Source: Gemmatirosa kalamazoonensis
GTDB lineage: Bacteria; Gemmatimonadota; Gemmatimonadetes; Gemmatimonadales; Gemmatimonadaceae
DNA length: 64,000 nucleotides
NCBI RefSeq assembly: GCF_000522985.1
Contig: NZ_CP007128.1
Span: 3,766,220 to 3,830,219 of the forward strand
Reading direction: 5' to 3'
The notes under the pieces are model-generated. The model ran no database searches, was not told the origin of the DNA, and saw only the letters and a list, made by a program, of their open reading frames with translations. The position numbers were made by a program, and so were the translations under genes. This document shows, piece after piece, positions 32,598-55,503 of this stretch; the stretch's first letter is position 1, and each line of letters begins with the position of its first letter.

Positions 32598-32656
32598 AGC
32601 GTCGAGCGTGGAGCGTGGAGCGTCGAGAACGCGCTCCACGCTCCACGCTCGACGCT
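32598..32656. repeat. Perfect palindrome, 25-bp arms with 9-nt loop, between sucD and the EIIA/CBS gene
   Basis: The arms at 32598-32622 and 32632-32656 are exact inverted copies and are built of repeated AGCGTGGAGCG/AGCGTCGAGCG units. The right arm ends 6 nt from the sucD stop codon, so the hairpin forms at the 3' end of the sucCD message. It could terminate or protect that transcript, or be a copy of a dispersed palindromic element. There is no U-tract after the stem on either strand. Confidence 0.85.
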
Positions 32657-32662
32657 GACTCG

Positions 32663-33535
32663 TCAGGCGAGTCGTTCGCGCACGAGCGAGACGAAATCGA
32701 TGGGCCGTTGAGCCACGCCCATGCCGGCGGCCCGGAACGCCTCGATCTTCTCGGCGGCCGTGCCCGACGAGCCGGAGATGATGGCGCCCGCGTGTCCCAT
32801 GCGACGGCCTGGCGGCGCGGTCTGGCCGGCGATGAAGCCGACGACGGGCTTCGTCATGCGCGTGCGCACGAACTCGGCCGCGTCCTGCTCGTCGGTGCCG
32901 CCGATCTCGCCCATCATGGCGACGACCTTCGTCTGCGGGTCGTTCTCGAACGCCTGCAGCACGTCGATGAAGCCCGTGCCGTTGATCGGGTCGCCGCCGA
33001 TGCCGACGCACGTGCTCTGACCGAGCCCGGCGCGCGTGAGGTGATAGACCACCTCGTACGTGAGCGTGCCCGAGCGGCTGACGACGCCGACGTTGCCCGG
33101 CGTGCAGATGCGGCCGGGGATGATGCCGACCTTCGCCTGTCCCGGCGTGATGAGCCCCGGACAGTTCGGGCCGACCAGTCGCGCGCCCTTCGCGATCACG
33201 TACGGGCGCACCTTCAGCATGTCGATGACCGGCACGCCCTCGGTGATGCAGACGACGAGCTGCACGCCCGCGGCCGCGGCCTCCATCATCGCGTCGGCGG
33301 CGAACGGCGGCGGCACGTAGATCACCGACGTGTTCGCGCCGGTCTCCTTCACCGCCTGCTCCACGGTGTTGAAGATCGGCACCGTGCCCTCGAACCTCTG
33401 CCCCCCCTTCCCGGGCGTGACGCCGGCCACGACGTTCGTGCCGTACTCGATCATCTGCTTGGCGTGGAACGAGCCGTCGCGGCCCGTGATCCCCTGCACC
33501 AGCAGGCGCGTGTTGCTGTCGACGAAGACGCTCAC
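32663..33535 (-). CDS. sucD: Succinyl-CoA synthetase alpha subunit
   Basis: SucD carries the phosphohistidine of succinyl-CoA synthetase and the CoA-binding fold. The 290-residue protein has [49 protein letters not shown] and the active His248 in RRMGHAGAI, just as in E. coli SucD. Its ATG overlaps the sucC stop as ATGA, fitting equal expression of the two subunits. The stop is followed at once by the 25-bp-arm palindrome. Confidence 0.98.
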
Positions 33536-53771: not shown

Positions 53772-54326
53772 ATGGCGATTCTCTCGGACCGCTGGATCAA
53801 GCGCATGGCCCTCGACCACGGCATGATCGAGCCGTTCGAGGACCGGCAGGTGCGTCACGGCGTCATCTCCTACGGCGTGAGCTCCTACGGCTACGACATG
53901 CGCGTCGCGCGCGAATTCCGGATCTTCACGAACGTCCTCAGCTCCATCGTCGACCCCAAGGCGTTCGACCCGAAGTCGTTCGTCGAGTTCGAGGGCGACG
54001 TCTGCATCGTGCCGCCGAACTCGTTCGCGCTCGCCCGGTCCGTGGAGTACTTCCGCATCCCGCGCAACGTCCTCACGGTCTGCGTCGGCAAGTCGACGTA
54101 CGCGCGCTGCGGCATCATCACGAACGTGACCCCGTTCGAGCCGGAGTGGGAGGGCTACGTCACGCTCGAGATCTCCAACACCACGCCGCTCCCGGCGAAG
54201 ATCTACGCGAACGAGGGGATCGCGCAGGTGCTGTTCTTCGAGGGGAACGAGCCGCCGGAGGTCTCGTACAAGGACAAGGCCGGCAAGTATCAGGGCCAGG
54301 TCGGCGTCACGTTGCCGAAGATCTGA
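53772..54326 (+). CDS. dcd: dCTP deaminase
   Basis: Dcd turns dCTP into dUTP for dTTP synthesis. The 184-residue protein starts [14 protein letters not shown] and has [15 protein letters not shown], the catalytic core [33 protein letters not shown] with the key Glu in the E-G-Y block, and the C-terminal [21 protein letters not shown]. Whether it is mono-functional or also a dUTPase cannot be stated. It is on the plus strand, divergent from nuoA and convergent with the small gene after sdhB, with a long palindrome between them. Confidence 0.95.
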
Positions 54327-54344
54327 GGCGTCGCAGGCGGGAGA

Positions 54345-54426
54345 CGAGAACAAAATGGGGATCCGACGGCGATCGACAGGATCCCAGGATCCACGCGATC
54401 GCCGTCGGATCCCCATTTTGTTCTCG
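54345..54426. repeat. Perfect palindrome, 31-bp arms with 20-nt spacer, between dcd and the sdh side
   Basis: The arms at 54345-54375 and 54396-54426 are exact inverted copies, and similarity continues imperfectly for about 12 nt outside them. The spacer has two copies of CAGGATCC. It lies between convergent genes (dcd ends at 54326, the unknown gene at 54442), and each arm ends in an A/T-rich CAAAAT/ATTTTG stretch, so it can act as a two-way terminator. Its length and perfection also suggest a mobile palindromic repeat (REP/MITE-like) rather than a plain terminator. Confidence 0.9.
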
Positions 54427-54441
54427 CCTCCGATCTGCCCT

Positions 54442-54669
54442 CTAGTCGCTCCCCGTCCCGCGCCGCGGCGGCGGATCGTAGTCCGTGCGGTCGCGGTCGA
54501 CGAAGGGATCGGCGGCGGCCGGCGACCGCTCCGCCCGGTCGTCGGTTCCCTTGCCCACGGTGTACGTCGTGCCCTCGACGTCGTCCGCGTCTCCAACCGT
54601 CGGCGTGCCGTTGGGTGTGTCCGGCACCTCGTCGAAGCTCTCGCCCGGGCTGGTCGACTTCCGCAGCAT
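54442..54669 (-). CDS. Small acidic protein of unknown function
   Basis: I do not recognise this 75-residue protein. It is rich in Asp, Pro, Thr, Gly and Arg, with no hydrophobic stretch, so it is likely disordered. A GAGGGA three to eight nt before the ATG is a good ribosome site. It lies 57 nt after sdhB on the same strand and just before the long palindrome, so it may be the last gene of the sdh transcript. Its reality rests on the ribosome site and on amino-acid use; no family supports it. Confidence 0.5.
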   Translation of the reverse strand: MLRKSTSPGESFDEVPDTPNGTPTVGDADDVEGTTYTVGKGTDDRAERSPAAADPFVDRDRTDYDPPPRRGTGSD

Positions 54670-54726: not shown

Positions 54727-55502
54727 TCAGCCCGCCCCGCCCGCGGTCGTCGCTTCTTCGCGCGCCATCACCGAGGCCTTGAGGTAGTCGCGGTTCATCC
54801 GCGAGATGACGTCGATGCTGATCGCCTTCGGGCACGCGTCCTGGCACTCGCCGAACAGCGTGCAGTGGCCGAAGCCCTCGATGTCCATCTGCTCCACCAT
54901 CGACAGCACGCGGCGGTAGCGCTCCGGCTGTCCCTGCGGCAGCATGCCGAGGTGCGCGATCTTGGCGCCGGTGAACAGCGACGCCGACGCGTTCGGGCAC
55001 GCGGCCACGCACGCCCCGCAGCCGATGCACGCCGCGGCGTCCATCGCGCGGTCCGACGCCTCCTTGCCGACCAGCACCGCGTTGCCGTCCGGCGCGCCGC
55101 CGGTGTAGGCCGAGATGTAGCCGCCGGACGCGATGATGCGGTCGAGGGCGCCCCGGTTCACGCAGAGATCCTTGATCACGGGGAACCCGCGCGCGCGCCA
55201 CGGCTCGATCCACAGCTCGTCGCCGTCTTTGAACGCGCGCATGTGGAGCTGACACGTCGCCGTCGCCTGCCACGGCCCGTGCGCCTGCCCGTTGATCATC
55301 ATGCCGCACGAGCCGCAGATCCCCTCGCGGCAGTCGTGGTCGAACGCGATCGGCTGCTCGCCGCGCGCGATGAGATCCTCGTTGACGACGTCCAGCATCT
55401 CCAGGAAGCTCATGTCCGGGCTCACGTTCGGCGCCTGGTACGTGACGAACTTCCCGTCGGTCTGCGCGCTGGCCTGACGCCAGACGTGGAGAGTCAGTTT
55501 CA

Positions 55503-55503
<1 letters not shown>
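54727..55503 (-). CDS. sdhB: Succinate dehydrogenase/fumarate reductase iron-sulfur subunit
   Basis: SdhB passes electrons from flavin to quinone through three clusters. The 258-residue protein has the 2Fe-2S ligands [33 protein letters not shown], then [15 protein letters not shown] and [16 protein letters not shown] for the 4Fe-4S and 3Fe-4S clusters. The start overlaps the sdhA stop (TAATG). The larger spacing and the C-terminal part are of the non-classical type that goes with a single cytochrome b558 subunit. Followed by a small unknown gene. Confidence 0.95.

Follow-up and report, generated by a model that had tools for sequence, protein, structure and literature searches.

Palindromic DNA between bacterial genes has been described in several forms. 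REP/BIME elements of the GTAG and CGTC families are palindromes dispersed between genes (PMC3733652, PMC2817692). REPs are 20–40 bp long, with stems of 5–13 bp and a GTAG or CGTC tag, and their ends frequently abut or provide stop codons; the CGTC families do not have a dedicated transposase (PMC3733652). MITEs and the enterobacterial RU/ERIC-type units are ~100–150 bp, non-coding, palindromic, and intergenic (PMC2759123, PMC2229807). In intrinsic terminators, the stem is preceded by an A-tract and followed by a T-tract, and stem-loop hairpins concentrate 3′ of coding regions (PMC1590033, PMC13155455).

The palindrome studied here lies 3′ of dcd in a 64,000-nucleotide stretch of Gemmatirosa kalamazoonensis DNA (the window). 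It belongs to a family of non-coding palindromic repeats dispersed through the genome, and the family is a new lineage-specific member of an already known class, the dispersed intergenic palindromic repeats. Like the REP/BIME palindromes, its copies are scattered between genes (~64 copies, 60 of them intergenic) and many of them adjoin or include a stop codon, and, as in the CGTC families, no dedicated transposase was identified for it. Unlike REPs, the family members are ~100–150 bp long, the stem of the dcd copy is 31 bp, no Y1 transposase was found, and the copies, read by eye, are not short tagged palindromes (77–155 bp, without the GTAG or CGTC tag). Of the REP/RAYT features tested, the family displays only the many dispersed intergenic copies. 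It resembles MITEs and RU/ERIC-type units in size, structure, and location, but neither a Y1 transposase partner nor a target duplication was found, and plasmid, phage, Rfam, and pattern searches showed no sequence relationship to those units. The dcd copy shares the A-tract and T-tract with intrinsic terminators. In contrast to them, its stem is far longer than needed and it belongs to a sequence family, the other copies of which have no T-tract.

The palindrome 3′ of dcd

The dcd gene (53772–54326, plus strand), encoding dCTP deaminase (Pfam DCD, E 9.7e-37), ends with a stop codon at 54324–54326. It is faced by a predicted small gene of 75 amino acids (54442–54669, minus strand; a gene call without Pfam match) with its stop at 54442–54444, and then by a gene at 54727–55503 (minus strand), which we take to encode an sdhB-like iron-sulphur protein and which faces dcd in many relatives. 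The whole imperfect palindrome (54333–54438) begins 6 bases past the dcd stop codon and ends 3 bases short of the stop of the predicted small gene, filling the convergent gap between the two facing stop codons.

The perfect arms at 54345–54375 and 54396–54426 are exact reverse complements (31/31). They enclose a 20-nt spacer (54376–54395) in which GGATCC occurs twice (54379–54384 and 54387–54392), and these two sites are able to pair together. The mismatch-free 31-bp arms and internally repeated spacer described in an earlier note on this DNA were thus confirmed, and the weaker symmetry that it had mentioned outside the arms extends across 54333–54438, with 52-nt arms that are 87% complementary and 2 nt apart. 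The covariance model R1 (see below) matched positions 54334–54437 with 90.4 bits. GGATCC, an RGATCY site, is also present in the left arm (54359–54364), where it forms a conserved block of the family, and in the right arm (54407–54412). On both strands, ATTTTGTTCT stands 3′ of the G+C-rich stem, with an A-tract before the stem; the T-tract TTTTGTTCT occupies 54416–54424 on the plus strand, facing dcd transcription, and 54347–54355 in the minus-strand reading.

The hairpin had fold z-scores of -14.5 as RNA and -12.5 as DNA, and none of 200 dinucleotide-preserving shuffles reached its stability in either form. No palindrome of screening strength occurred when 656 kb of genome sequence was simulated twice with a first-order Markov model. 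The GC content of the palindrome is 61%, compared to 68% in 1000 flanking bases. Its perfect arm run of 31 is the longest among the 64 copies (next 28 and 21).

Among 39 family genomes, own included, dcd was detected in 32, and 30 loci were retrieved. Of the 29 loci from relatives, 19 have an sdhB match opposite dcd, which is within ~160 bp in 9 of these. The best arm score in the 200 bp after dcd did not exceed 15 in 28 relatives, compared to 32 in the own genome; the remaining locus (L124) was left out because its contig ends there. The sites after dcd are therefore empty in these 28 relatives, as the comparison proposed in the earlier note had envisaged.

A dispersed family, lineage-specific among the genomes searched

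The genome comprises 4 contigs and 7,479,215 bases, with contigs of 5,311,527, 1,106,233, and 1,040,503 bases; replicons of 5,312, 1,106, 1,041, and 21 kb have been reported for strain KBS708 (PMC3974934). A BLASTN search of the own genome with the element as query gave 68 matches at E ≤ 10. The nearest non-self match of the dcd copy was 77% identical over ~90 bases, and shorter core pieces matched at up to 100% over ~20 bases. The 19-bp arm core with up to 3 mismatches occurred 55 times on one strand and 52 times on the other, compared to 0 and 0 for the reversed pattern. The model R1, built from 10 copies, gave at least 128 strand matches among the best 150 of 12,488 first-look candidates that were scored, and these condensed to ~64 places (42 on C2, 19 on C4, and 3 on C3), a number that may be too low because 150 of the 12,488 candidates were scored. 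A rescan of the fetched stretches returned the same 64 places and one core-less place (L058:7771), which was left out of the 65, as were 5 rows of 23–26 bits. Since R1 also scored an unrelated palindrome (L187) at 44 bits, weak matches were inspected by eye for the core. The earlier note had named a single copy with a hairpin conserved at dcd as the case that would favour a plain terminator; its proposed search for further copies instead revealed ~64 places, and the relatives are without the hairpin. Copy density is uneven between the replicons, with 19 copies in the 1.04 Mb of C4, 42 in the 5.31 Mb of C2, and 3 in the 1.11 Mb of C3.

The short form of the copies spans ~58 bp from the GGGG block to the CCCC block, longer forms have an additional inner hairpin, and the model matches measure 77–155 bp with conserved ends AGG..GAGGCGAG. 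Sorting by flank homology and by hand, with a few borderline cases, yielded 35 stand-alone copies and 29 copies that lie within a larger composite palindromic repeat or have flanks in common with it. For stand-alone copies, homology ceases at the palindrome ends. Identity among the nested composite copies reaches 95%, which indicates that the composite form spread recently. In the composite repeats (L060, L062, L065, L100, and others), the dcd-type and ACCACAGAGGGCACGGAGG-type palindromes both sit inside a GAACCGCAGAGGACGCAGAGG-type palindrome, in the manner of nested dolls.

A first search of 40 genomes (own and 39 relatives) gave matches at E ≤ 0.01 in two, the own genome and G017 (E 0.002). 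The order-wide search, run with strict filters and 14 candidates scored per genome, gave matches at E ≤ 0.001 in 3 of 288 genomes (own, G230, and G257). Inspection by eye showed that the matches in G017 (L056), G230 (L142 and L143), and G257 (L141) represent different repeats or palindromes in which the GGGGATCC core does not occur in both arms, and no convincing family copy was found in the 287 other genomes of the order. The plasmid and phage collections, from which records of the own genome may be excluded, gave no match, and Rfam gave none at the gathering score, the sub-threshold matches being mostly microRNA hairpins. A pattern scan of genome contigs returned 15 stretches that were read by eye and taken as coincidence: 12 from Methylobacterium are one identical coding-like sequence, presumably a transposase, and the other 3 are without a palindrome. 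No description of the family was found in the literature searched. Within the genomes searched, the family is restricted to the G. kalamazoonensis genome.

Placement at gene ends and similarity of the arms

Genes were called with a simple codon-usage caller made for this analysis, which assigned 91% of the sequence as coding. With an overlap of up to 15 bp allowed, 60 of the 64 copies are intergenic, and 4 overlap a gene call by more. The intergenic copies occupy 32 same-strand, 20 convergent, and 8 divergent gaps; relative to copy-free gaps, convergent were favoured over divergent gaps with an odds ratio of 4.1 (p 0.0015). All but one of the same-strand copies (31/32) are closer to the upstream stop than to the downstream start, at a median distance to that stop of 7.5 bp (a count that is one too high for plus-strand genes). 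For the 21 stand-alone copies in same-strand gaps, uniform placement in the gap would put 4.4 within 8 bp of the upstream stop, and 16 were observed there. Twenty of the 35 stand-alone copies lie no more than 10 bp from the nearest facing stop, in either direction, and in 8 of the 35 a stop codon is inside the matched element. A Pfam match was obtained for 17 of 19 scanned proteins (hand-chosen flanking genes, dcd and the small gene included), and several matches reach the last few residues. Such a distribution could arise if promoters and genes are avoided. The family members, often located just after stop codons, probably act as a gene-end (terminator-like) structure.

The arms were compared in the same copies. 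In the stand-alone copies, the columns of GGGGATCC, the inner GATC, and GGATCCCC are 0.80–1.00 conserved (mostly >0.9), and spacer columns fall to 0.34–0.5. Across these 35 copies, the arms are more alike within one copy than between copies: when arms were shuffled, with subtype relatedness ignored, none of 2000 shuffles was as good in three segments and 31 of 2000 in the fourth. The same test showed no such similarity in the 29 nested copies. Mismatches on the sense strand were nearly balanced between G-U and A-C, both in same-strand stand-alone copies (38 vs 34) and in other palindromes (35 vs 39), so the G-U excess by which RNA-level selection would be seen was not found in either set, and the RNAalifold covariation term was slightly unfavourable. 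Together with the missing arm similarity of the nested copies, these results reveal no trace of selection for an RNA hairpin and count against the terminator reading. In a near-palindrome, hairpin-templated correction can copy one arm onto the other. Because the dcd copy combines the longest perfect arms with a nearest sister that is only 77% identical, arm-to-arm homogenisation explains its perfection better than youth, and the comparison suggests a copy that is old, yet alike within itself.

A reading in which palindromes simply arise and are tolerated between genes, as selfish or neutral debris with no function, is unlikely. The occurrence of several unrelated families of long palindromes in gaps of the same types and the lack of RNA-sense bias in the mismatches are consistent with it, but column conservation is uneven (blocks of ~0.9–1.0 vs spacers of 0.34–0.5) and the crowding at stop codons exceeds what mere exclusion from genes would give, although an insertion preference could also cause crowding.

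Long palindromes in general were surveyed with a uniform inverted repeat scan (arm score ≥19, spacer ≤60). The 656 kb around the copies contained 74, of which 12 belong to the dcd family and 62 do not. Twenty stretches of 20 kb, hand-picked at round coordinates outside the fetched regions, contained 40 in 400 kb of the own chromosome (GC 0.731), i.e., 10 per 100 kb, which extrapolates to ~500 on the chromosome in several sequence families. Two relatives contained 2 in 200 kb (G021, GC 0.646) and 6 in 200 kb (G046, GC 0.724), and the 29 dcd loci of relatives (102 kb) contained none. When gaps of at least 60 bp were considered, sampled palindromes were present in 11 of the 21 convergent gaps, in 22 of the 99 between same-strand genes, and in 1 of the 38 divergent ones; 5 of the 40 overlap a gene call. 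Other palindromes in same-strand gaps lie within 8 bp of a stop in 10 of 22 cases in the chromosome sample (6.8 expected) and in 11 of 19 cases around the copies (6.0 expected; 13 of 59 overlap a gene call there). Their crowding at stop codons is weaker than that of the stand-alone dcd-family copies.

Several unrelated long palindrome families (L057–L110 and L179–L198) are mostly intergenic, and many of their arms consist of direct repeats, 7–12 bp by eye. A second perfect palindrome in the window, at 32598–32656, has 25-bp arms made of AGCGTGG-type repeats. It sits in a 76-bp gap, at a distance of 6 bp from the stop codon of a predicted gene (32663–33535, minus strand). Other palindromes with short-repeat arms occur in relatives, GGGGATC-rich in G230 (L142) and GGAAGAC-rich in G257 (L141:600–720), so the palindrome habit may be wider than this genome. 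The own genome encodes homologues of the palindrome-cutting nuclease SbcCD, which score below curated cut-offs as they do in most relatives, so loss of this nuclease was rejected as the cause of the many palindromes. That a large and fast-renewing set of long palindromes serves as the main gene-end punctuation, kept perfect by arm copying and with the dcd family marked by methylation at RGATCY, is a tentative reading that we rate about as low as functionless debris.

Mobility, methylation, and termination

Recent insertion of a REP- or MITE-type element, through a transposase that recognizes its ends, would leave several of the traces seen here: copies dispersed over the chromosome and two plasmids, stand-alone homology that stops at the palindrome ends, dcd sites that are empty in relatives, and nested composite copies up to 95% identical, which points to recent spread of that form. 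However, the nearest sister of the dcd copy is only 77% identical over ~90 bases, and the Y1 (TnpA-REP) transposase that the earlier note proposed to look for was not found, PF01797 giving no match in the own genome at E ≤ 1 (the control matched in 10 of 14 genomes). Nor was a target-site duplication detected, the best flanking direct repeat of the 35 stand-alone copies averaging 4.37 vs 4.47 in shuffled pairs. No transposase-like gene was seen by eye between neighbouring copies at 4 loci. Such an element is doubtful, somewhat more so than the readings above. The mobile palindrome of the earlier note stands as a dispersed, lineage-specific palindrome family with empty sites in relatives; its recent arrival, contradicted by the distant sister and the better account from homogenisation, does not, and neither does the Y1/REP transposase.

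RGATCY is a methylated motif according to the species paper (PMC3974934). The 64 copies contain 219 such sites (31.7 per kb), compared to 1.09 per kb in the remaining fetched sequence and 0 in 40 other palindromes, and the GATC blocks are among the best-conserved columns. Avoidance of the motif elsewhere in the genome was rejected (observed/expected 0.70–1.10), and no BglII/BstYI-type nuclease was found with a control that itself matched in just 2 of 14 genomes, never above the cut-off. We know of no protein that binds the dcd-family palindrome. An element acting at the DNA level, through methylated RGATCY sites that affect protein binding or mark gene ends, is the least probable reading, since the copies share descent, so that the enrichment is suggestive and by itself proves nothing, and the motif is neither avoided nor favoured elsewhere.

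Features of the site itself suggest termination. The palindrome stands just after the dcd stop and near the facing predicted stop, a position typical of intrinsic terminators. TTTT within 10 nt after the stem CCCC was found only in the dcd copy, where both strands have it; the pattern was applicable to 54 copies on both strands, to 8 on one, and to 2 on neither. A simple terminator scan, which covers loops of 3–8 only, does not list the palindrome. Judged from its sequence, the dcd copy most likely works as a bidirectional terminator of transcription, or as an mRNA 3′-end structure. The facing stops and the T-tracts on both strands are terminator-like, so the mobile-palindrome and terminator readings, opposed in the earlier note, need not exclude each other.

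We therefore lean, with modest confidence, toward an old, lineage-specific, non-autonomous palindromic repeat that here forms a bidirectional terminator or 3′-end hairpin and owes its perfect arms to arm copying. In this scheme, a dispersed palindromic DNA repeat unable to move by itself would have been spread through the genome by an enzyme or by recombination. Copies persist between genes, often straight after stop codons and more commonly in convergent than in divergent gaps. The copy at dcd may then end the transcripts of both dcd and the facing small gene, and hairpin-templated correction would have copied one of its arms onto the other.

The family stands out as a long palindromic repeat at gene ends without a REP-type transposase, in a genome that is richer in palindromes than the two relatives sampled. 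It offers a usable case for studying by what routes long palindromes originate, remain perfect, and turn into transcription terminators in G+C-rich bacteria.
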